A stretch of 64,000 nt of DNA from Leucothrix mucor DSM 2157 (GTDB lineage: Bacteria > Pseudomonadota > Gammaproteobacteria > Thiotrichales > Thiotrichaceae): NCBI RefSeq assembly GCF_000419525.1, contig NZ_ATTE01000001.1, positions 1,178,001 to 1,242,000 on the forward strand, read 5' to 3'. Both the position numbers and the translations under genes were made by a program. Below the pieces are notes generated by a model, which searched no databases, had not been told where the DNA came from, and saw only the letters and a program-made list of their open reading frames with translations. Shown in pieces: positions 1 through 11,396 of the stretch. The number at the start of each line of letters is the position of its first letter. The first letter of the stretch is position 1.

Positions 1-481
1 TGGGGCGTCTCGCTTCCTGATCCAAAAAGGCTGGAATCAGGCCGCATTGCCAGTCATTGGCGTGTACCACATCGGCCCGCCAGTCTTTTATAACATTGCC
101 GGTTGCGATTTGTGATACGGCCCATGCAAATTGCGTGTAGCGCTCTGCATTGTCCGCCCAGTCGTGGCCATCTGGCCCCAAATACGGATTGCCAGGCCGG
201 TCATACAGGCCCGGACAATCAATCAGCCACAGCGTGACATCAATCTTTTCATGCTTTGCTTCCAGCAGACGCAATGTGGGTTGTTCACCATACGGTGAGT
301 CGAGCCAACCCAATATGCGCAGATTTGTACACTGCTGCAGTACCTCTCGGTAGGCAGGCATGATCAGATGTACATTATGTCCGGTGGCTTTGAGGGCGTG
401 TGGCAAACTATACGACACATCACCTAAACCGCCGGTTTTGACCAAAGGCCAAACTTCACTACTGGCAAACAATATATTCAT
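1..481 (-). CDS. glgA: Glycogen synthase, N-terminal part (runs off window)
   Basis: Reading the minus strand from position 481 gives a protein starting MNILFASSEVWPLVKTGGLG, the ADP-glucose-binding N-terminus of GT5 bacterial glycogen synthases. The KTGGL motif binds the ADP-glucose pyrophosphate in the family. About 160 residues are present; the rest lies beyond base 1. The enzyme adds glucose from ADP-glucose to growing alpha-1,4-glucan in the cytoplasm. The ATG overlaps the glgB stop codon as ATGA, so it should be translationally coupled to glgB in the glk-glgC-malQ-glgB-glgA run. Gene identity is well supported; completeness cannot be judged. Confidence 0.93.
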   Translation of the reverse strand, partial: MNILFASSEVWPLVKTGGLGDVSYSLPHALKATGHNVHLIMPAYREVLQQCTNLRILGWLDSPYGEQPTLRLLEAKHEKIDVTLWLIDCPGLYDRPGNPYLGPDGHDWADNAERYTQFAWAVSQIATGNVIKDWRADVVHANDWQCGLIPAFLDQEARRP

Positions 482-2643
482 GGGATTACCTTCAAAAACA
501 GAGCCGCCAATGGTGGCAGGGTTAGTGAGAGTGATTGTTCAAATCCCATCCAAGGCTTATCTTCCGCTTCGATAATACTGCTATTCCCACAGTTACTACC
601 AGTGTAATAGGCCGAATCTGTGTTTAGTATTTCTGTATATGAACTTGATTCAGGTATACCGATGCGATAGCCGATGCGTGGAATCGGAGTGAAATTGAAC
701 AAGCAAACGATGTGATTGCCTTCGCGGTCAAAGCGCAATGCAGAGAGCACCGACTGGTCTGAATCGTTGCAATCAATCCAGCTAAAGCCTTCTCCGGAGA
801 AGTCCAGATCGTGCAACGCTGTCTCTTCGCAGTACAGTTTGTTCAGGTCTTTAATTAGCAAGCTAATGCCGGCGCGATCAGGTTCGGAGGCGGCTTGCCA
901 GTTCAACTCAGCTAACTCATTCCATTCTTCAGGCTGGGCAATTTCGCCACCCATAAACATCAGCTTCTTACCCGGATGCGCATACTGCCAAGAGTAGAAC
1001 AGGCGCATATTGGCCAGCTTCTGCCAACGGTCGCCCGGCATTTTTTCATACAGGCTACGCTTGCCGTGAACCACTTCGTCGTGGGATAGCGGCAGTACAA
1101 AGTTCTCGCTGTAAGAGTAGATCTGGCTAAAGGTCAGCTTGTTCTGATGGTACTTACGGTGAACCGGATCTTGCTCAATGTAATCGAGGTTGTCATTCAT
1201 CCAACCCATATTCCACTTCATGGTGAAGCCAAGTCCGCCGAGCTCAATCGGACGTGAAACCATTGGCCAGGAGGTAGATTCCTCAGCCATAGTTAAGGCC
1301 CCAGGTACTTCATGATGCACGATTTGGTTCATTTCACGCAGGAAGGCAACCGCTTCTAAGTTTTCACGACCACCAAATTCATTTGGTATCCATTCGCCTG
1401 CATTACGCGAGTAATCCAAGTACAACATAGAGGCAACCGCATCGACGCGCAGGCCATCGATATGGAATTCTTCCAGCCAGTACAGTGCATTGGCCAGTAA
1501 GAAGTTACGCACTTCATTGCGGCCATAGTTGAAGATCAACGTGCCCCAATCTTTGTGCTCGCCTTTGCGGGTGTCCGCGTGCTCATACAGTGCATCGCCA
1601 TTAAAGCGAGCCAGTGCAAAGCTGTCTTTCGGGAAGTGGGCAGGAACCCAATCCAAAATCACACCAATGCCATTACGGTGACAGCGATCAACGAATTTAC
1701 GTAGCTGATCCGGTGTACCAAAGCGGGCAGAGGGTGCATAGAAGCCAGTCACCTGATAGCCCCAAGACTGATCCAGAGGATGCTCGGAAATCGGCATTAG
1801 CTCGATGTGTGTGTAGCCCATCTCTTTAACGTAGGGAATTAGGCGCTCGCCCAATTCATCCCAGTCATAAAACTCATCCGCTGCGGGGCGCTGCCAAGAG
1901 CCTGCATGAATTTCATAGATAGAGATGGGTTTGTGCTGCCAGTCAAATTTTGCTTTAGCCGTTTGCCAAGCCTCATCCTGCCAATCGTAAGTGTCATCAG
2001 CCACGATACGTGAAGTGGTATCCGGGCGTAGCGCCATGTGGCGAGCATAAGGATCAGTTTTCACCAATAAGTGATCATCGGCGCTCAGCATTTCATACTT
2101 GTAGTGATCGGTCGCTTGCAAGCCGGGCACAAATAATTCCCAGATACCAGAGCCGCCTAGTGTGCGCATTGGATGACGTCGGCCATCCCAGCCGTTAAAG
2201 TCGCCAACTACACTCACGCGCTTAATTGCCGGTGCCCATAGCACAAACAAGCAGCCTTCTACGCCATCAATCGTTTTGAGGTGTGCACCCATAAAGCGAT
2301 AGGCATGGTGATGCTTACCTTCATTGAACAGGTGGATATCCAGCTCGCCAACTTGTGGCAAAAAGGAGTAGGGCGAATGGCTTTCGTGCCATTCTTCACT
2401 GCCTTTTTCTTGCCAGCGCAGGGTGTAATGGTCACCGATGGTGTCTGCTTTTTTAAGCTTAATCTCAAAAAAATCAGTTCCCTCAAGGCGTTGCATTGGA
2501 CGGTCATGCTGAAAGAAAACCGTTTCAGCACTGGGCATAAATGCACGGACTAAGGCTTGTCCCTTAGGCGTCGTCTGATAACCGAGTGCGAGGAATGGAT
2601 CGTGGAGTGCGCCTTGTTGCAAGGCCTTCATATGCTCATTCAC
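478..2643 (-). CDS. glgB: 1,4-alpha-glucan branching enzyme
   Basis: GH13 glycogen branching enzyme, which makes alpha-1,6 branches in glycogen. An N-terminal beta domain and a CBM48-like domain (WAPAIKRVSVVGDFNGW, about residues 136-152) precede the catalytic barrel. The three acidic residues sit in GLRVDAVAS (Asp about 401), MAEESTSW (Glu about 454) and LSHDEVVHGK (Asp about 522). The start is probably GTG at 2643, about 721 residues, with a GGAG about 10 nt upstream; this overlaps the malQ end by 8 nt. ATG at 2631 is an alternative. A further upstream TTG at 2727 would read deep into malQ and is unlikely. It overlaps glgA by 4 nt. Confidence 0.95.
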   Translation of the reverse strand: MNEHMKALQQGALHDPFLALGYQTTPKGQALVRAFMPSAETVFFQHDRPMQRLEGTDFFEIKLKKADTIGDHYTLRWQEKGSEEWHESHSPYSFLPQVGELDIHLFNEGKHHHAYRFMGAHLKTIDGVEGCLFVLWAPAIKRVSVVGDFNGWDGRRHPMRTLGGSGIWELFVPGLQATDHYKYEMLSADDHLLVKTDPYARHMALRPDTTSRIVADDTYDWQDEAWQTAKAKFDWQHKPISIYEIHAGSWQRPAADEFYDWDELGERLIPYVKEMGYTHIELMPISEHPLDQSWGYQVTGFYAPSARFGTPDQLRKFVDRCHRNGIGVILDWVPAHFPKDSFALARFNGDALYEHADTRKGEHKDWGTLIFNYGRNEVRNFLLANALYWLEEFHIDGLRVDAVASMLYLDYSRNAGEWIPNEFGGRENLEAVAFLREMNQIVHHEVPGALTMAEESTSWPMVSRPIELGGLGFTMKWNMGWMNDNLDYIEQDPVHRKYHQNKLTFSQIYSYSENFVLPLSHDEVVHGKRSLYEKMPGDRWQKLANMRLFYSWQYAHPGKKLMFMGGEIAQPEEWNELAELNWQAASEPDRAGISLLIKDLNKLYCEETALHDLDFSGEGFSWIDCNDSDQSVLSALRFDREGNHIVCLFNFTPIPRIGYRIGIPESSSYTEILNTDSAYYTGSNCGNSSIIEAEDKPWMGFEQSLSLTLPPLAALFLKVIP

Positions 2644-4006
2644 TTGTATCGATCTCCGTTCTCGTGTTTTGTCTAATTTGCTGATGGATTTGCTCCGCCA
2701 GCGCCTCTGGCATGTCGTGCCAGTCAAATCTCCATCGCCAGTTGTTGTCGATGGTGCCAGGTGTATTCATTCGCGCTGAGCTGTCGAGCTTCAGGAAATC
2801 CTGCAGCGGAACGATGGCCAGACAGGCTGGTGTTTCCAGCGCTGCATTAATTAGGATGTTGCAGATATCATCGTTTGCTTCGACATCTAAGCTTTCAAAC
2901 ACAAAGGCTTGTTCATGGGCTTCTAAGCTTTCGAACCAGCCCAAGGTCGTATCATTGTCATGGGTGCCGGTGTAAACGATGCGGTTCTCATGAATGTTCT
3001 TTGGCTTATGAGGGTTGTCCTCAAACGAGTCAAAGGCAAACTGCAGGACCGACATACCGGGTAGATCAAACTGATCGCGTAGGGCATTCACTTCGGGTGT
3101 AATCACTCCCAAGTCTTCAGCAACAATGGGCACATCACCAAGGCGTGCTTTAAGCGCATTCAGCAGTGCTTCGCCAGGGACTTCTTCCCACTTGCCTTCA
3201 ATAGCCGTCGGGCAGCTGGCATCAATCATCCAAACCGCTTGTAAGCCACGGAAGTGATCAATCCGCACAATGTCATACAAGCGGTAGTGGTGTTCCATGC
3301 GCTGCATCCACCACTCAAAACCATCCTTTGCAAGATTTTCCCAGTGGTAATGTGGGTTGCCCCAGCGTTGACCGGTTTCAGAGAAGTAATCAGGTGGTAC
3401 GCCGGCAACCACTTCGGGTTGGCCTTCATCATTGAGCATAAAGCAGTCGCGATGCGCCCAAACGTCTGCACTGTCGTGCGCCACGAAAATAGGCATATCA
3501 CCAAAAATAGCAATGTCCCGTTCATGGGCAGCGGCTTTGACTTCCTGCCAACGTCTATCCAGCAAGTACTGCTGCCAGCGCAAGGCTTGCATGGCGTCTT
3601 GCTGGGTTTCATTCAACCAGTCGAACATTTCCGGATGGCGGTATTTTTGAGCGTCGGGCCAGTCGTACCATGGAAGTTGCTGATTGAGTTCACGCAGTAC
3701 GTAATACTGGGCGTAGTCATTCAACCAATAGCTTTGCTGTTCGCACCAGCGCAGGTAATCCGGATTTTCCGGTTCAATCTCGGACGTGTCATCCAGCAGG
3801 GCGGGATTCATGGCAAACGCGGAGTTACACAAATAAGGTGACAGGCTTTGCTGCGGTACACCGAGTGGCAGTACTTGCCAAACCCGTAAGCCGGCTTGTT
3901 GCATAAAGTCCAACCAGTGCATTGCATCGGCATCTAATTTCCCAGAGGGTAGGGAAGTCGGGTGCAGCAATACGCCAGCGCGGCGTTGATGAAGTGGGTT
4001 ATTCAA
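2636..4006 (-). CDS. malQ: 4-alpha-glucanotransferase (amylomaltase)
   Basis: GH77 disproportionating enzyme of about 456 residues that transfers maltooligosaccharide segments between glucans, linking glycogen breakdown products back to glucose and longer dextrins. The N-terminus RRAGVLLHPTSLPSG is typical. Catalytic acids are in RIDHFRGL (nucleophile Asp), VAEDLGV (acid/base Glu) and GTHDNDTT (Asp). It is the short DPE1-like form rather than the roughly 700-residue enterobacterial MalQ. The start is TTG at 4006, supported by an AGGAG 8 nt upstream; no better ATG is seen. It sits between glgC and glgB in the same direction. A strong stem-loop lies in the 141-nt gap to glgC. Confidence 0.93.
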   Translation of the reverse strand: MNNPLHQRRAGVLLHPTSLPSGKLDADAMHWLDFMQQAGLRVWQVLPLGVPQQSLSPYLCNSAFAMNPALLDDTSEIEPENPDYLRWCEQQSYWLNDYAQYYVLRELNQQLPWYDWPDAQKYRHPEMFDWLNETQQDAMQALRWQQYLLDRRWQEVKAAAHERDIAIFGDMPIFVAHDSADVWAHRDCFMLNDEGQPEVVAGVPPDYFSETGQRWGNPHYHWENLAKDGFEWWMQRMEHHYRLYDIVRIDHFRGLQAVWMIDASCPTAIEGKWEEVPGEALLNALKARLGDVPIVAEDLGVITPEVNALRDQFDLPGMSVLQFAFDSFEDNPHKPKNIHENRIVYTGTHDNDTTLGWFESLEAHEQAFVFESLDVEANDDICNILINAALETPACLAIVPLQDFLKLDSSARMNTPGTIDNNWRWRFDWHDMPEALAEQIHQQIRQNTRTEIDTSE

Positions 4007-4063
4007 TCAGGAGTCTCCTCGGCACATTTTCAGGGCGCCGTTATCTCGGTGTAATCTTTCAAT

Positions 4064-4112
4064 TGTGCAGATAATGCTTGGGCTAATCAGTTGCTCAAGC
4101 GTTATCTGCACA
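4064..4112 (-). other. Intercistronic stem-loop between glgC and malQ
   Basis: Positions 4064-4080 and 4096-4112 form 17-bp arms (TGTGCAGATAA(T/C)GCTTG) with a single G-T type mismatch and a 15-nt loop. No T-run follows in either direction, so it does not look like a standard intrinsic terminator. It could stabilise or process the glgC mRNA, or attenuate entry into malQ-glgB-glgA. Confidence 0.6.
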
Positions 4113-4147
4113 GTAGCGTGGTTGTTAATAGCGGCTCAGAACCAAGC

Positions 4148-5479
4148 TTAGTTCTTTTCGCGCCATCTTGTGCTTCCATCAAATGGGAAACTGTATTGTC
4201 CCATCATTTCCGGAGTCACTAGCACGATGCCCTCTTCAGAGACGTGGAAGCGCTTGCGATCTTCCTCGATATCTTCTCCGATGATCGTACCATCTGGGAT
4301 TTCTGTTTCTTTATCAATAATGGCGCGGGTGATGCGGCAGTTTTTACCAATGGTTACCTTTGGCAAAATCACGCTGTCTTTGATGAAGCTGTGACTGTCG
4401 ACGGTGACGGCAAATGACACAACGGAGCGCTTCACTTTAGCGCCGGACAGAATGCAGCCTGCTGAGATCAGCGAGTCAATCGCTTCACCACGACGGCCAT
4501 CTTCGTCAAACACGAATTTAGCGGGTGGGTTCTGGGTCTGGTAAGTCCAGATCGTCCATGCGCGATTATACAAGTTCAGCTCTGGCTCAACGTCGCACAG
4601 CTCCATATTGGCACGCCAATATGATTCCAAGGTGCCGACATCACGCCAGTAAGCAGGGAGGCCCGTTTTCTCATCTCGGAAAGCATAAGCCATTGCCATG
4701 GAGTCTTTAATGCGCGCTGGGATAATGTCTTTACCAAAGTCGTGCGATGAGCTGCCATCACCGGCATCTTTACTGAGTGTTTCGTATAGGAAGCGGGTTG
4801 AGAAGACGTAAATGCCCATGGAGGCAAGTGCCATATCAGGCTTGCCGGGGATCGGCTGTGGGACAGCCGGCTTCTCGTCAAAACGCGTAATCTTCATGTC
4901 GTCATCAACGGCCAGTACACCAAAGCCTGTGGCTTCTTCCAGCGGAACTTCGATGGCACCAACGGTAAAGTCAGCCCCAGAGTTCACATGCTGAACCAGC
5001 ATCTTTGCATAGTCCATGGTATAGATATGATCGCCACCCAATACGATGACGTATTCGGTGTTATGGCGCTGCATGATATCCATATTCTGGAATAGGGCAT
5101 CAGCGGTGCCTTTGTACCACGCCTTCTCTTCGGTACGTTGTTGTGCGGGTAGCAACTCGACGAACTCACCAATTTCTGCACGCATAAATCCCCAGCCACG
5201 TTGCAGGTGGCGAAGTAAGGAGTGGGATTTGTACTGCGTGAGGACGCCAATTTTGCGTAAGCCTGAATTGACACAGTTGGATAGAGCAAAGTCGATGATT
5301 CGATACTTTCCGCCAAACGGCACGGCGGGTTTAGCGCGCCATTTAGTTAAATCTTTTAGCCGAGAACCTTCACCACCCGCCAGAATCAACACCAGTGTGT
5401 TACGGGTTAATGCGGTGATCATGTTTGGTTCAACATAATATTTTTTTAAATCTACCTGATCCTTAGGACCTCGCGCCAT
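4148..5479 (-). CDS. glgC: Glucose-1-phosphate adenylyltransferase (ADP-glucose pyrophosphorylase)
   Basis: Makes ADP-glucose from glucose-1-phosphate and ATP, the committed and usually allosterically controlled step of bacterial glycogen synthesis. The nucleotide-binding signature LILAGGEGSRLKDLT is near residues 31-45, followed by KPAVPFGGKYRIIDFALSN, GTADALFQN, GGDHIYTMDY and FDEKP, then a C-terminal left-handed beta-helix. Length 443 is slightly above the roughly 430 typical because of an N-terminal extension (MARGPKDQVDLKKYYVEPN). ATG at 5479 has AAGGAA just upstream and lies 17 nt after the glucokinase-like gene, so the two are probably co-transcribed. Confidence 0.95.
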   Translation of the reverse strand: MARGPKDQVDLKKYYVEPNMITALTRNTLVLILAGGEGSRLKDLTKWRAKPAVPFGGKYRIIDFALSNCVNSGLRKIGVLTQYKSHSLLRHLQRGWGFMRAEIGEFVELLPAQQRTEEKAWYKGTADALFQNMDIMQRHNTEYVIVLGGDHIYTMDYAKMLVQHVNSGADFTVGAIEVPLEEATGFGVLAVDDDMKITRFDEKPAVPQPIPGKPDMALASMGIYVFSTRFLYETLSKDAGDGSSSHDFGKDIIPARIKDSMAMAYAFRDEKTGLPAYWRDVGTLESYWRANMELCDVEPELNLYNRAWTIWTYQTQNPPAKFVFDEDGRRGEAIDSLISAGCILSGAKVKRSVVSFAVTVDSHSFIKDSVILPKVTIGKNCRITRAIIDKETEIPDGTIIGEDIEEDRKRFHVSEEGIVLVTPEMMGQYSFPFDGSTRWREKN

Positions 5480-5496
5480 ATTCCTTCCCTCATGGT

Positions 5497-6456
5497 TTAA
5501 TATCGATAAGTAGCAGTTTCGATTGCCCCTTGTAGGTTAATGCCGGGGTTCGTTACCAGATATATCGGAGTCTGTTTCACAATGTTGCTCATGCGACCTT
5601 TCTTCAGGCACGTATTCAAGAAATGTTCTGATTGCATCCACTGTTTTAAGGCGACTGCTACATGCCCGCCAATGTAGATTCCACCCATTGGTTGATATAG
5701 CAATGCCAGATTACCTACGTAAGCGCCATAGGTGGTGACGAACAGCTTAATTGCACGTTCTGCAGCTGCGTCATCGGGTGTACGTTGAGTAATCTGTTGT
5801 ACCGTTAAGCGTGCATCTGAACCAGGTTCTTCTTGTTTACAGTAAGCATATAATTCCCGTAATCCCTCATCAGATAGGATACGCTCATATGAAACATGAT
5901 TAAAGCGTTTCATTAGATACTCTAATACCGCAACCTGCTCCTCATTTACCGGTGCGAAGTCTACATGACCGCCTTTGCTCTGGTGGCGCTCCATTGCATT
6001 GTGTGGATGATCCATCCAAGTCATGCCCAGTCCATGCCCGGCACCAGTGACCACTCGGATGCCACGTTCGCGTTCAGCACCCTCATTTAGGACAACGATA
6101 TCTTCAGAAGAGGTGACTGCCACACCACGGGCAGCAGCATCAAAATCACTGATCAACGAAACTTCACTGATGTAAAAATGCTCTGCCAGTTTGGCGGCAT
6201 CAAAGTCCCAATCCAGCTCGCTCAAGTGGCAGTGATTGCCATCAACTTTTCCGGCTAGTGAGAGGCAAAAGCGCTCGATTAAAGCAGCCTTGGCATCGGC
6301 GTCATGCAAAAACTGTTCAATCAAGCGGCGTGGCGATGAGAATTTCTTGGGTTGGTAAACAGCGTTGAACAGGGGTTCCCGCTCACCGTTGTGTGAGATT
6401 CTTAATAACGTGAGTTCAGCACGTTCGGCATGGATATCTGCAGCCAGAATTTTCAT
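5497..6456 (-). CDS. Glucokinase-like protein with altered ATP phosphate loop
   Basis: Resembles bacterial ATP-dependent glucokinase (Glk, PF02685), which phosphorylates glucose to glucose-6-phosphate. Conserved parts seen: ISDFDAAARG (catalytic Asp about 104), VVTGAGHGLGMTWM, GGHVDFAP (162-169), YERILSDEGL and GGIYIGGHVA. Length 319 is normal. Odd: the N-terminal phosphate-binding motif of the family (DxGGTNxR) is here DIHAERAEL (residues 7-15), losing both glycines and the threonine. The glucose-contacting Glu before GGHVD is also Lys. The fold should be kept, but catalysis is doubtful; a regulatory or altered-substrate role is possible. It lies directly upstream of glgC. I give no symbol because activity is uncertain. 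Confidence 0.8.
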   Translation of the reverse strand: MKILAADIHAERAELTLLRISHNGEREPLFNAVYQPKKFSSPRRLIEQFLHDADAKAALIERFCLSLAGKVDGNHCHLSELDWDFDAAKLAEHFYISEVSLISDFDAAARGVAVTSSEDIVVLNEGAERERGIRVVTGAGHGLGMTWMDHPHNAMERHQSKGGHVDFAPVNEEQVAVLEYLMKRFNHVSYERILSDEGLRELYAYCKQEEPGSDARLTVQQITQRTPDDAAAERAIKLFVTTYGAYVGNLALLYQPMGGIYIGGHVAVALKQWMQSEHFLNTCLKKGRMSNIVKQTPIYLVTNPGINLQGAIETATYRY

Positions 6457-6636
6457 CGTATGGATCCCTTATCTTTATTATTATTGAGTCGCTGACGGTC
6501 GATGGCAGTCGCTCTTTGTCTACTTAAGACTTAACATTAAGTTTAGCTTATAACGTCTTTCCAGAACGGTTGATTAACGGGAGGGTTTTCGTATTATTTT
6601 TATTAAATTAGCTGAATGGCGCGGAGGGGGCGGAAC

Positions 6637-6673
6637 AAACTACGGTGCTCAGCTGACTGAACACCGCAGTTTT
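6637..6673 (-). terminator. Hairpin after pgl, probable terminator
   Basis: Downstream of pgl on the minus strand, AAACT-a-CGGTG-c-TCAG pairs with CTGA-a-CACCG-c-AGTTT around a 4-nt loop. A short T-rich stretch follows. It would separate pgl from the glucokinase-glycogen run, whose promoter should lie in 6457-6630. Confidence 0.5.
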
Positions 6674-6688
6674 GCTGGAATAGCTGGC

Positions 6689-7399
6689 TTAGTTGCTACC
6701 TAACCAAGCAGCATGGTCGCAGTATACGGCCGCGTTATGCTTGGAGGTAATGCCACTAACCGGCATCGGCTTTCCACTAATCCAGTCGATCACTCTTGGG
6801 TGCTTAGACTGGCCAGTAATTAAGATTAATAATTGCACATTGTTGCTCAGGCAAGCTGAACTGAGGCTGACCCGTTCAGGTGGTGGCTTGGGCGCGTTCA
6901 GCACCGGATGCACCAGCTGGGCTTCGTCATGAATATGCCCTGGAAATAGACTGGCAGTATGGCCATCTTCACCCATGCCAAGTAACACCATATCGAAGCA
7001 TTCAACGTTGCTGATGGTATTTTGGTATTGAGTCGCGGCCTCATGCGGACCAAGTTCTGAAGGCATGAAATGCACTTGCTCAGAAGGGATGGCGACTGAC
7101 GATAATAAGCACTCTTCAACCATTACGCTGTTACGCTCTGCATCATCCACTGGCAGGCAACGCTCATCACCTAAATATAAATGCCAGTGCTGCCAATCGC
7201 TGTTTGCTTTGGCTAGCAGGCGGTAGATCACTTTTGGCGTAGTGCCACCAGCTAATACAATGTGAAACGCACCACGTTTTTCAATCGCATCAGCAGCGGC
7301 TTTAAGAATATCGTCGGTTGCTTGTTGAGCGAGCTGTTCGGCATCCGCAAATAGCTGCCAGTCCGGAGTGTGTGCAGCAGGCGTGGTCTGTTCAGTCAT
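6689..7399 (-). CDS. pgl: 6-phosphogluconolactonase
   Basis: DevB/SOL-type lactonase (236 residues) of the oxidative pentose phosphate and Entner-Doudoroff routes; it hydrolyses 6-phosphogluconolactone in the cytoplasm. Motifs: VLAGGTTPKVIYRLL (about 48-62), LGDERCLPVDDAERNS (about 76-91) and the family signature GMGEDGHTASLFPGH (about 141-155). Length fits the family. ATG at 7399 follows a gap of about 85 nt from the next upstream gene. Its usual partner zwf is not in view. A hairpin follows it. Confidence 0.93.
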   Translation of the reverse strand: MTEQTTPAAHTPDWQLFADAEQLAQQATDDILKAAADAIEKRGAFHIVLAGGTTPKVIYRLLAKANSDWQHWHLYLGDERCLPVDDAERNSVMVEECLLSSVAIPSEQVHFMPSELGPHEAATQYQNTISNVECFDMVLLGMGEDGHTASLFPGHIHDEAQLVHPVLNAPKPPPERVSLSSACLSNNVQLLILITGQSKHPRVIDWISGKPMPVSGITSKHNAAVYCDHAAWLGSN

Positions 7400-7483
7400 G
7401 ATTGATCTCAGGTAATTAGCAGAACCCGAAGTTTCTCACTTGTCCCAAACAGATGCCAGTACCCTAGCGGCAGGATCTGATAT

Positions 7484-8146
7484 TTACGGTTGCAGTGGCT
7501 CGCCGCGTACCAGTCTGACAGAGAGGTAGTCAGTACGCTCAAGATTGTTCAGAGGTGTCTCGTCCGCAAAAATACCGATGATGCTACCGGCTGCACTCAG
7601 TGTATTGGTCCAGTAAACAAAGCGGCGATTGAATGGGAAAAAGTCGGTATCGATGGAGGGAAGGTATTCATTGCCAGAGAGTTGCGGGTCGACCAGGCTC
7701 AGCAGCTCCTGATCGCTAGGCAAGCGCCAGTCATTATAGCCGCAGTACTGGCTTTGGTTGATGCGACGGCTGTAAGCACTGGTGTTGCAATAGCTTGAAG
7801 GATCGCTGGTGCGGTAGCCATAGCAGGTGTTGTCCAAGGCGAATAGCTCTGGGTTAGCGCGTGGTTGGCCTGGTTCATTGCTCAGTGCTGCTTGCTCTGG
7901 CTGGTACCAGATAAAAGTGTCTTGGCCGCGTAAGGCACTGCTTGGGTCTTTTTTTTCCCAGACTAAACCGGTCTGCTCGTCCCTAACACAATCCCACTCT
8001 TGCGCACTAGGTGGAAGAAGCTCGCCATGGCTTCCTAGTTTGGATAGCTGAGGCGCAGAGTTGTGGGCAATGGCTGGGGTTAACAGGTGGCAGTATGCGC
8101 ACGTCAAAGCAGTTAGCAGACGTAGGTTTACAGTTTTTGCAGGCAT
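7484..8146 (-). CDS. Exported DUF1566-domain protein
   Basis: About 220 residues from ATG 8146 (AAGGA 9 nt upstream); a longer TTG reading to 8194 is less likely. The N-terminus (MPAKTVNLRLLTALTCAYC, then TPAIA) looks like a signal peptide. The body carries the DUF1566/Lcl C-terminal pattern: TGLVWEKKD, a central cysteine-containing section with CYGYR and YCNTS, CGYNDWRLPSDQELLSLVD, then YWTNT and LSVRLVRG near the end. Function is unknown; family members are periplasmic or surface proteins related to C-type-lectin-like folds. It lies in the same direction as the DUF1287 lipoprotein upstream, separated by about 130 nt. Confidence 0.8.
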   Translation of the reverse strand: MPAKTVNLRLLTALTCAYCHLLTPAIAHNSAPQLSKLGSHGELLPPSAQEWDCVRDEQTGLVWEKKDPSSALRGQDTFIWYQPEQAALSNEPGQPRANPELFALDNTCYGYRTSDPSSYCNTSAYSRRINQSQYCGYNDWRLPSDQELLSLVDPQLSGNEYLPSIDTDFFPFNRRFVYWTNTLSAAGSIIGIFADETPLNNLERTDYLSVRLVRGEPLQP

Positions 8147-8277
8147 TGAAAGAAGTCCTTTTGTTTCGGGCCGCTGGTATTGTGGATTTATCATACTAAA
8201 TTAAAGGTTAACATCGACTTTGGGGGGAAGTATGGTGATGTTAGGTGGTAACTAAGTGACAAATGGTTGGCGAGCGT

Positions 8278-9123
8278 TCATCCTTTCTTAACAGTCGTGC
8301 GGTTAGCTTGTTTATTTGTTTTCTGAGTCGGGTGATAGCGATAGTGGCCAGTAATTTCAAAGTCAAATAAGATGTCATCAATCTCCGGGCCATTGCCAAT
8401 ATTGTGGGCAATTAAATAACGTCGGGGATCATCACGACTCACCATTTCAAGCACGACGCCAATATGGGGAAGCTTAGGCCCAACTTGCCAGGTTACGAGA
8501 TCGCCCGGCTGGTAATCTTCCGGGTTGTTAGTAATTGGCAGGGCTTCTCCATGGCGGCTAAAGAAAGCCTGAAGGTTATAAACGCGACGATGGTCGATAT
8601 TCGTGTCGGGCTTGCGTAAACCCCAGCGTTTACGGCTAGGGTAGCGGTTGAAGTTTTTACGAATGTCTTCATGGACCACTTGTTGTAGATCAACACCCAA
8701 CTCCCGATAGGAGCGAATCACAACGTCGGTACACACGCCAATATCGGCGGGGACATCGCCCATTGGATAGGCAATTTTTAAATAACGCCCGTCATAACGA
8801 ACGCGATGCTGCGTACGGCCCAAAGCGGCTTGCGCTAATTCCTGAGCAAAGGTGAGTGGTACAGGCTCTGGCAAGGGCACTGGTTTTATGGGGATGACTT
8901 CAGGCAGCGATGGCTCGTAGTAGGGGTCTTCAGTTAATGGCATCTCAGACATCCAGCCATTTTCCAAAAGCGTGAGGTCCGGTAGCTCGGTATGCCCGGT
9001 GTTGATGGTCGGCTGCTTAAGCACCAGTGGCTCCTGCTCGGAGTCTGTGGTTTTGGGGTCACATGCAGCGAGCAGGGTGGCGGTGATCAGCAGTGCCGAT
9101 AGATGTGCCCTTGATATAGTCAT
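8278..9123 (-). CDS. DUF1287-family lipoprotein, NlpC/P60-like hydrolase fold
   Basis: About 281 residues from ATG 9123; a TTG at 9159 would extend it by 12. The N-terminus ends in LLAAC, a lipobox, so it is probably anchored by lipid at the periplasmic face. After a proline-rich linker (about 50-85) comes the DUF1287 domain: DIGVCTDVVIRSYRELG with the likely catalytic Cys, PGDLVTWQ, LPHIGVV with the likely His, and AHNIGNGP. It is similar in layout to E. coli YijF. Family function is not established; peptide or cell-wall amide hydrolysis is inferred from the fold. It is divergent from the MerR gene and shares its 126-nt upstream region. Confidence 0.82.
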   Translation of the reverse strand: MTISRAHLSALLITATLLAACDPKTTDSEQEPLVLKQPTINTGHTELPDLTLLENGWMSEMPLTEDPYYEPSLPEVIPIKPVPLPEPVPLTFAQELAQAALGRTQHRVRYDGRYLKIAYPMGDVPADIGVCTDVVIRSYRELGVDLQQVVHEDIRKNFNRYPSRKRWGLRKPDTNIDHRRVYNLQAFFSRHGEALPITNNPEDYQPGDLVTWQVGPKLPHIGVVLEMVSRDDPRRYLIAHNIGNGPEIDDILFDFEITGHYRYHPTQKTNKQANRTTVKKG

Positions 9124-9212
9124 ATCACTATATTTAATGGGATTCTGAGAATATAACAAGTAGGCAGCATTACCATTCGTACAGAATGCATCGAAAGCGT
9201 GTGATTCTCGTG

Positions 9213-9230
9213 GTTGACGTATACGTCAAC
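9213..9230. promoter_or_regulatory. Perfect 18-bp palindrome, probable MerR operator
   Basis: GTTGACGTATACGTCAAC reads the same on both strands. It lies 20 bp before the MerR-gene ATG and 90 bp before the divergent DUF1287 gene. A candidate -35 (TTGACG, 9215-9220) lies inside it, with TATCAT (9237-9242) as -10 at 16-bp spacing. This fits binding and autoregulation by the adjacent regulator. A related palindrome lies at 29189-29204 before prpE. Confidence 0.75.
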
Positions 9231-9249
9231 TAGTTCTATCATTGGTTAT

Positions 9250-9657
9250 ATGGAGAAGAAAATCGACCAGTTATATACTATTTCTGAGCTTGCAGATGCA
9301 TTTGGCATAAGTACCCGAACGATTCGGTTTTATGAAACCAAAGCGCTGTTAAACCCCGGGCGAGTCGGCGGCAACCGGGTATACAGCTATCGTGACAGAG
9401 CGCGCTTAGGGCTTGTGTTACGCGCCAAACGTTTGGGGTTCTCTCTGACGGATATTCGCGACTATATCGAACTCTATGAAGCTGATCCTGATCATAAGGA
9501 ACAGTTGCAGCTGCTATTAAGCAAAGTCCGGCATCGAATGCAGGAATTGCAGCAACAACAGGAAGATCTGTTAACCACACTGGGCGAGTTAGAAGATATT
9601 CAGACACTGTGTGTTGATCATTTAATTCGCATTGACGAGTCAGCACAGGTCGATTAG
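9250..9657 (+). CDS. MerR-family transcriptional regulator
   Basis: About 135 residues from ATG 9250. The N-terminal winged helix-turn-helix is clear: YTISELADAFGISTRTIRFYETKALLNPGR, then NRVYSYRDRARLGLVLRAKRLGFSL. A glutamine-rich coiled coil (HRMQELQQQQEDLLTTLGELEDIQ) forms the dimerisation helix. No cysteine set for metal binding is present; only one Cys is seen near the C-terminus, so it is probably not a metal sensor. It resembles the LiuR-like group that controls fatty-acid or branched-chain catabolism, which fits the acyl-CoA ligase 71 nt downstream. No Shine-Dalgarno sequence precedes the ATG, and the predicted transcript start is at or next to it. Confidence 0.88.
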   Translation: MEKKIDQLYTISELADAFGISTRTIRFYETKALLNPGRVGGNRVYSYRDRARLGLVLRAKRLGFSLTDIRDYIELYEADPDHKEQLQLLLSKVRHRMQELQQQQEDLLTTLGELEDIQTLCVDHLIRIDESAQVD

Positions 9658-9728
9658 TCTGATCTTAATGAATTGATAATAAAGTAAAGATTGGCAACCG
9701 AACTGGTTTGTCATGATGAGGAAATCAA

Positions 9729-11396
9729 ATGGAAAAAATCTGGCTTAAGAGCTATCCCGAAGGCGTTGATCCTGAGATCGATGTGAATGAATACACGTCG
9801 ATTAATGATGTGCTCAATCGAAGCGTAAAGAAATTCGCAGACAAACCTGCTTATGAAAACTTGGGAAAGAAGCTAAGTTATGCTGAGCTGGATGAGCTGA
9901 CTGCACAGTTTGCCTCCTACCTGACGCATGTCGCCAAGCTTGAGAAGGGCGATCGCATTGCGATTATGTTGCCTAACTTGCTGCAATATCCCGTTGCCTT
10001 ATTTGGTGCCTTGCGTGCGGGCTTAACCGTGGTTAATACCAATCCGCTTTATACCGATCGCGAGCTTGAGCATCAGCTAAAGGATTCGGGCGCTAAAGCC
10101 ATTGTTATTCTGGAAAACTTTGCACACACTTTGGCAGATGTCATTGAGCAGACACCGATTCAAACGGTGATTACGACTCAGATTGCTGATCTGGTTGGTT
10201 TTCCAAAATCAATGCTGATCAATGGCATTGTAAAATACGTCAAGAAAATGGTTCCGCCATTTCAATTGCCGGGCGCAATTAAGTTTAACCACACGCTGGC
10301 AGAAGGCAAAAAGTACCCTTATAAAGAAGTTACTCTTGGTCACGAAGACGTGGCATTTCTGCAATACACGGGCGGAACGACCGGTGTGGCAAAAGGGGCT
10401 GCGTTATCGCATCGCAATATGATTGCGAACCTGCTGCAAGCACATAGTTGGGCTGGCGCAGATTTGGTCGATGGTGAAGAGTTAGTGGTTACGGCATTGC
10501 CGCTTTATCACATCTTCGCACTGACGGCGAATGCGCTCTTCTGTATGAAGATCGGTGCCAATAGTTTGCTGATTACCAATCCTCGCGATATGCCGGGTTT
10601 TGTGAAAAGTTTACGTGGTAGAAAGTTCTCATACATCACGGGTGTGAATACTTTATTCAATGGTTTGATCCATGCTAAAGGCTTTGACGAGCTGGATTTC
10701 TCTGGTCTGAAGTTATCACTTGGCGGCGGTATGGCCGTGCAGCGCTTTGTGGCTGAAGAGTGGAAGCGCATTACAGGTTGTACTTTGGTTGAAGCCTATG
10801 GCTTGACCGAGAGCTCGCCAGCGGTATGTATTAACCCAGTTCACCTGCCAGACTTTAACGGTGCGATCGGCTTACCGCTGCCATCAACGAATGTCAGTAT
10901 TCGCGATGTGAATGGTAATGAGCTTGGCATTGATGAGCCTGGTGAGTTATGTGTTCAAGGGCCGCAAGTGATGCAGTGCTACTGGCAACGTCCGGATGAG
11001 ACCGCCAATGTACTCAGTGCTGATGGCTGGTTGCGTACGGGGGATGTGGCGACAATTGATGAGCAGGGCTTTGTTAAAATCGTTGATCGCTTAAAAGACC
11101 TGATCATTGTGTCTGGCTTTAATGTGTATCCGAATGAGATTGAGGACGTGGTTGCTACGCATCCGAAAGTGCTTGAAGCGGGTGTGGTTGGCGTCGTCGA
11201 TGATAAGTCTGGCGAAGCGGTTAAACTGTTTGTGGTGCGTGGCGATAGCAGCTTGACGGAGGAAGAGTTGCGTAAATATTGCAAGGAAGAGCTTACCGGC
11301 TATAAGCGTCCTAAGCACATTGTATTTACCGATGAGCTACCCAAAAGCAATGTGGGTAAGATTCTTCGCCGAGAGCTTCGAGATAAGAAGTCTTAA
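9729..11396 (+). CDS. fadD: Long-chain fatty acid--CoA ligase
   Basis: Acyl-CoA synthetase (555 residues) of the ANL superfamily; activates fatty acids via an acyl-adenylate for beta-oxidation. Motifs: YTGGTTGVAKGA (ATP/AMP loop, about 216-227), YGLTESSP (about 357-364), WLRTGDVA, DRLKDLIIVSGFNVYP and the C-terminal catalytic Lys in NVGKILRREL. N-terminus MEKIWLKSYPEGVDPEID matches FadD proteins. ATG 9729 has GAGGAA upstream. It lies downstream of the MerR regulator and ends at a strong terminator shared with pckA. Confidence 0.93.
   Translation: MEKIWLKSYPEGVDPEIDVNEYTSINDVLNRSVKKFADKPAYENLGKKLSYAELDELTAQFASYLTHVAKLEKGDRIAIMLPNLLQYPVALFGALRAGLTVVNTNPLYTDRELEHQLKDSGAKAIVILENFAHTLADVIEQTPIQTVITTQIADLVGFPKSMLINGIVKYVKKMVPPFQLPGAIKFNHTLAEGKKYPYKEVTLGHEDVAFLQYTGGTTGVAKGAALSHRNMIANLLQAHSWAGADLVDGEELVVTALPLYHIFALTANALFCMKIGANSLLITNPRDMPGFVKSLRGRKFSYITGVNTLFNGLIHAKGFDELDFSGLKLSLGGGMAVQRFVAEEWKRITGCTLVEAYGLTESSPAVCINPVHLPDFNGAIGLPLPSTNVSIRDVNGNELGIDEPGELCVQGPQVMQCYWQRPDETANVLSADGWLRTGDVATIDEQGFVKIVDRLKDLIIVSGFNVYPNEIEDVVATHPKVLEAGVVGVVDDKSGEAVKLFVVRGDSSLTEEELRKYCKEELTGYKRPKHIVFTDELPKSNVGKILRRELRDKKS

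Follow-up and report, generated by a model that had tools for sequence, protein, structure and literature searches.

Plants and fungi are well known to have conserved pseudo-glucokinases, and yeast Gal3, Arabidopsis HKL1 and fungal HxkC are noncatalytic hexokinase-like regulators with mostly transcriptional or signaling roles. By description, these eukaryotic proteins work in the way that we consider below for a bacterial protein, GlkX, in that a relative of a sugar kinase has been kept as a sensor. A looser analogy is offered by GKRP, a sugar-phosphate-binding relative of the isomerase fold, given that an isomerase-fold relative also lies beside the glucokinase-like protein in the glkX/pgi operon of Leucothrix. 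Unlike the GKRP case, both the isomerase and the kinase relatives are degenerate in the Leucothrix operon, and an interaction between them is putative. We found no conserved pseudo-glucokinase described from bacteria in the titles and abstracts searched, a body of literature that mostly excludes subscription papers. The Escherichia coli glucokinase Glk (b2388; PDB 1q18, 1sz2 and 9duc; PF02685) is homologous to GlkX over its full length, and the two share common descent, the large-domain core, the catalytic Asp and the residues of the anion pocket. GlkX differs from E. coli Glk in having no DxGGT loop, GHG in place of GTG, GG followed by Arg, Gln or His in place of GGG, and Ser in place of Asn99, and in scoring under the NCBIfam glucokinase cut-offs. 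For these Glk positions we assume the names phosphate-2 motif (Thr137) and adenosine-side GGG motif, and Glu157 is presumably a residue of the glucose site. According to the available portions of PMC13133996, Asn99, Asp100, His160 and Glu187 of the E. coli enzyme contact glucose, the anion pocket consists of His160, His183, Ser185, Arg188 and Arg286, and His160 touches glucose and phosphate alike.

The window, by which we mean the whole 64,000-nucleotide stretch of Leucothrix mucor DSM 2157 that was analyzed, carries the gene order pgl-glkX-glgC-malQ-glgB (Table 1). The first-pass annotation had placed the glucokinase-like gene directly before glgC, and the 17-base spacing between glkX and the glgC start at position 5479 bears this out. 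GlkX matches the Pfam glucokinase family PF02685 from end to end (248.5 bits against a gathering cut-off of 22.1; profile positions 1 to 309 of 314). It falls short of the TIGR00749 equivalog (182.6 bits against a cut-off of 225.45) and lies below all other NCBIfam glucokinase cut-offs too; an intact syntenic ortholog from another genus (L021) scores 241.4 bits for TIGR00749. An ortholog of GlkX is present in 7/7 Leucothrix genomes of our set, three of them 56 to 69% complete, with 66 to 71% identity to the window copy, and related loci at 66 to 68% identity belong to Leucothrix arctica, uncultured Leucothrix (n = 2) and uncultured Thiotrichaceae. A wrong start or frame was considered and rejected, given that the N-terminus, MKILAAD, aligns with intact orthologs. 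A sequencing error in the first bases, raised in the first-pass annotation as a possible source of the loop loss, was likewise rejected because the six further genomes of the genus also lack the loop. An AlphaFold prediction for five sequences, the window protein and four relatives, had a mean pLDDT of 51.6 and a pTM of 0.51.

Table 1. Features of the glkX operon and of compared regions; coordinates without a locus prefix are window positions.
Feature	Coordinates	Strand	Basis
GlkX, Glk-family putative pseudo-glucokinase, 319 aa	5497..6456	-	Open frame, ATG start, PF02685
GlkX residues 7-15, DIHAERAEL, degenerate ATP phosphate-1 loop (DxGGT, E. coli 9-17)	6412..6438	-	Alignment
GlkX residues 103-104, Ser-Asp (E. 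coli Asn99 to Ser, Asp100 kept)	6145..6150	-	Ser in 7/7, Asp in 7/7
GlkX residue 141, His in GAGHGLG (E. coli Thr137, phosphate-2 motif)	6034..6036	-	His in 7/7
GlkX residues 161-164, KGGH (E. coli Glu157, here Lys, to His160)	5965..5976	-	Alignment
GlkX residues 187-192, HVSYER (His183, Ser185, Glu187, Arg188 all kept)	5881..5898	-	Invariant in 7/7
GlkX residue 265, His (third Gly of GGG, E. coli Gly263)	5662..5664	-	Alignment
glgC, ADP-glucose pyrophosphorylase, next downstream of glkX	4148..5479	-	TIGR02091, 513.5 bits, over cut-off
pgl, 6-phosphogluconolactonase, upstream of glkX	6689..7399	-	TIGR01198, 189.9 bits, over cut-off
malQ, 4-alpha-glucanotransferase	2636..4006	-	PF02446, 475.3 bits
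glgB, branching enzyme	478..2727	-	TIGR01515, 921.6 bits at the corresponding genome place; Pfam domains
Possible GH57 gene remnant in the glgC-malQ gap	4036..4166	-	Two weak collinear tblastn pieces, marginal
Lcl_C-domain protein	7484-8194
DUF1287 protein	8278-9159
Operon pgi, Leucothrix genome 1 of 3	L044:8433-10121	-
Operon pgi, Leucothrix genome 2 of 3	L045, about 8530-10146	-
Operon pgi, Leucothrix genome 3 of 3	L047:4385-6058	+
glgC stub of G003, 91 codons	L046:5769-6029
Tandem pgi copies of G029	L050:2281-6039

Residues were compared in one alignment that set the seven GlkX proteins against 47 PF02685 proteins of the same taxonomic family, of which 19 are the closest relatives outside the genus and 28 are additional members of the family; a locus with a long insert in its frame (L041), duplicate loci of one gene and PF02685 matches of about 41 bits or less were left out. 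The reading of DIHAERAEL in place of the DxGGT loop, made originally for the window protein, was confirmed and extends to the whole genus, given that GGT occurs in 0/7 GlkX proteins compared to 47/47 relatives. Gly12 and Thr13 (E. coli numbering) are each found in 0/7 versus 47/47, Gly11 is found in 1/7 versus 47/47, and the loop tripeptide reads HAE, SCE, SAD (three proteins), GND or NNE, with an acidic residue (Asp or Glu) at the Thr position in every GlkX. In a class-wide sample of 369 genomes, 210 of which had a match (the genome of the window included), we examined 29 of the best loci outside that genome, and GGT was present in 28/28 of those whose frame covers the N-terminus (L114, in which the N-terminus is missing from the frame, was left out of the count). 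The catalytic Asp100 is conserved in all seven GlkX proteins and in all 47 relatives, the surrounding region of the window protein reading LISDFDAAARG, and the preceding Asn99 is Ser in 7/7 GlkX proteins versus Asn in 47/47 relatives. Thr137 is His in all seven (GTG to GHG) versus Thr in all 47, and Gly263 is Arg in three, Gln in three and His in one versus Gly in all 47, meaning that GlkX has none of the DxGGT loop, the phosphate-2 Thr and the adenosine-side GGG that mark membership of the glucokinases. At the glucose site, SKGGHVDFAP in the window protein, the Lys pointed out earlier at the place of the expected Glu before GGHVD is real in this protein and not fixed in the genus (Glu157 is Glu in five and Lys in two GlkX proteins; Glu in 47/47 relatives), and His160 is His in three, Met in three and Gln in one (His in 47/47 relatives). 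Among the glucose residues Asn99, Glu157, His160 and Glu187, only Glu187 is kept in 7/7. The earlier view that the catalytic Asp region and the glucose site remain thus stands for the Asp and not for the Asn99, Thr137 and Gly263 positions. Asp9, Asp100, His183, Ser185, Glu187 and Arg188 are invariant in 7/7 and Arg286 is present in 6/7, and the residue table as a whole shows the loss of the ATP side and of some of the glucose side, with the anion side and the catalytic Asp retained.

GlkX shares its operon position and its nearest tree clade with glucokinases of other genera in the family that have pgi and glgC as neighbors (e.g., L021 to L039). In all 14 regions fetched from these genera, representing 14 of the 19 close relatives, an intact glk stands directly before glgC and a pgi copy lies within the region. 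Unlike GlkX, the syntenic glucokinases have intact DIGGTKSW, NDF, GTGLG and EGGH motifs. Alignment with relatives beside glgC had been proposed as a check in the first-pass annotation, and in the alignment with family members, such relatives among them, the motifs are intact in 47/47 relatives and the ATP motifs altered in 7/7 GlkX proteins. In a protein tree of 63 rows built by a quick method, the seven GlkX proteins group together (support 100) and are nested within the syntenic genes of active type (support 89). Gene position and tree both identify GlkX as the ortholog of this ordinary syntenic glucokinase. The stem of the GlkX clade measures 1.15 changes per column and its tip branches measure 0.0075 to 0.30; a long stem followed by short tips points to rapid change in the genus ancestor and then renewed constraint. 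In the available portions of a pangenome study of the related genus Thiothrix, glk was present in all members and too divergent for the core genome, for which horizontal transfer or faster evolution was suggested (PMC8570282).

The codon-model omega of the seven glkX genes was 0.048, similar to the values of active-type glucokinases (0.082 and 0.040 for the intact paralogs glkA and glkB, and 0.086 for five intact orthologs from a different genus); the neighbors pgl and glgC gave 0.087 and 0.017. Across the GlkX pairs, pN reaches 0.246 and pS 0.899, and the omega values are rough because G005/G006 is the only GlkX pair whose synonymous sites are not saturated. This pair gave a pN of 0.008 versus a pS of 0.066, with a dN/dS of 0.115. 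GlkX keeps 55 of the 92 columns that are invariant in the 19 intact relatives, and the kept columns are concentrated in the large domain (40/53) relative to the small domain (15/39; Fisher p = 5e-4), with the domain limits taken from E. coli Glk as given in the available portions of PMC13133996. Sixty columns, many charged residues among them, are invariant in the seven GlkX proteins yet variable in the intact orthologs. Catalytic motifs that are lost and purifying selection that is retained are the marks of a pseudoenzyme, and GlkX has both.

On the residues and codons compared here, ordinary kinase activity has very probably been lost from GlkX, and the original description of the protein as noncatalytic appears well supported, given that 7/7 proteins have lost the three ATP motifs along with the Asn that binds glucose and that the gene is still under strong purifying selection. 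That GlkX is still a glucokinase, binding ATP in a remodeled site or using ADP or polyphosphate as the donor, is very unlikely. Kinases with odd loops do at times remain active and the general base Asp is kept in every member, but all three ATP motifs are altered in each of them, an acidic residue has been gained in the loop, and Asn99 is uniformly Ser. The ROK-family polyphosphate glucokinases retain a loop of the DxGGT type, and the fold of ADP-glucokinases is a different one; the other phosphate donor put forward in the first-pass annotation is also unlikely, since it is the phosphate-binding motifs that GlkX has lost. A gene that is merely decaying after its host gained other glucokinases is barely credible and largely refuted. 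In its favor, the operon pgi is absent in 4/7 genomes and the GH57 gene in some. However, glkX is open in 7/7 genomes, the proteins are 66 to 71% identical across species although synonymous sites are saturated (omega, 0.048), and GlkX is kept in G003 to G006, where no second PF02685 gene was found. ROK kinases were considered and rejected as substitutes for the glucokinase that the small genomes lack; G003 and G006 have none, and G004 and G005 have one each. GlkX is thus the sole glucokinase relative found in G003, which is 97% complete.

The best single explanation, which we put forward tentatively, is that GlkX may be a regulator or scaffold that responds to hexose phosphates. In the genus ancestor, GlkX would have ceased to bind ATP, given up part of its glucose site and changed fast before becoming frozen again. 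The host genome (5.19 Mb, two contigs) contains two further PF02685 genes (367 and 339 bits) with intact DxGGT loops, which would have freed this copy. It would still fold like Glk and keep the anion, or sugar-6-phosphate, side of the large-domain pocket, and it might, more speculatively, report the hexose-phosphate state to the operon's enzymes of glycogen and hexose-phosphate turnover or physically organize them. The ligand, the partner and the regulatory effect are speculative, and the variation among GlkX proteins of His160, the residue that in E. coli contacts both phosphate and glucose, counts against this reading. A purely structural scaffold or noncatalytic subunit that holds the operon enzymes together and senses no ligand is unlikely; such a role would account for the large domain being the best-kept part, since the dimer interface of the E. 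coli enzyme lies in this domain (PMC13133996, available portions), and for the sixty newly invariant columns with their many charges, but it would not require invariant anion-pocket residues and a catalytic Asp. A heterodimer with another Glk is likewise unlikely as a general rule, since glkX is the only PF02685 gene found in G003. We regard a new nucleotide-free catalysis on a sugar or sugar phosphate, through the retained Asp104 and Glu191, as quite improbable. These equivalents of Asp100 and Glu187 are invariant in 7/7, and a new invariant His141 has appeared in the former phosphate loop, but the His160 and Glu157 positions drift within the genus, and we know of no precedent for nucleotide-free catalysis in the Glk family. 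If GlkX does respond to sugar phosphates as a regulator, it would offer a simple, testable example of a metabolic enzyme that has become a regulator within the operon it belongs to, for which the intact orthologs of sister genera are ready controls.

The operon and the retained anion pocket make it plausible that GlkX senses sugar for glycogen synthesis, as first suggested, and a role specific to GlgC is at best putative, given that glgC is missing beside glkX in two genomes. In G005, glkX lies directly before malQ with no glgC in that place, and in G003, glgC is cut to a stub beside an intact glkX, weakening the case for a GlgC-dedicated role. Neither glgA nor glgB had a match in G003 (97% complete), and glycogen synthesis seems to have been lost there recently; the loss of glgC looks recent because the stub retains 88% identity to the window GlgC over 87 residues, which softens the argument from G003 against a glycogen link. 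It is doubtful that GlkX acts in glycogen synthesis alone, since it persists in both genomes without a full adjoining glgC. A GH57 gene lies between glgC and malQ in two other Leucothrix regions (L044 and L047) and is absent in some genomes of the genus, and the possible remnant in the window is a weak match to the first 45 residues (E = 0.024 and 0.089). A promoter scan of positions 5400 to 7500 gave 4 sites versus 3.1 expected, no excess of note. On the far side of pgl, the Lcl_C-domain protein keeps its place next to that gene in 6/6 Leucothrix operon regions (L044 to L049), and the DUF1287 protein keeps a place near it in 5/6, the contig of the sixth ending earlier.

In three of the seven Leucothrix genomes (G001, G002 and G004), a second pgi lies between pgl and glkX. 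It was not found in the other four, that of the window included, and in G003, G005 and G006 the place is a short gap or incomplete; the 232-base gap upstream of glkX held no convincing pgi remnant (best E = 1.9 over 5 residues). The available portions of PMC9436075 treat the roles of Glu and His in phosphoglucose isomerase. The catalytic base Glu is lost in 3/3 operon copies (ESNGK to QGNGK, QTCGR and QSNGK), as are the C-terminal Lys (ELGK to ELGN, KLSD and ELGN) and the GGR motif, whereas the same positions are intact in E. coli and in 17/17 further copies examined, of which 15 come from the operons of other genera and two are main copies from Leucothrix. The three copies are open over about 560 codons, with a pN of 0.26 to 0.28, a pS of 0.81 to 0.85 and an omega of 0.048, and they form one clade (100/100) beside the operon copies of other genera. 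Together with glkX, this makes two consecutive enzymes of one Leucothrix operon that have lost catalytic residues yet are under selection. It could be, improbable as we judge the full scenario, that glucokinase and phosphoglucose isomerase both became pseudoenzymes in the genus ancestor, jointly reading hexose phosphate and controlling glycogen turnover, and that the isomerase was later lost in some species, including that of the window. If true, this would be a bacterial metabolite-sensing module put together from copies of the pathway enzymes themselves that no longer catalyze. The two operon pgi copies that were scanned still pass the curated NCBIfam glucose-6-phosphate isomerase cut-off (658 and 541 versus 492) without the catalytic residues, which is a warning for annotation. 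One further arrangement was seen in G029, where two tandem pgi copies, with motifs intact in both, lie upstream of an intact glk.
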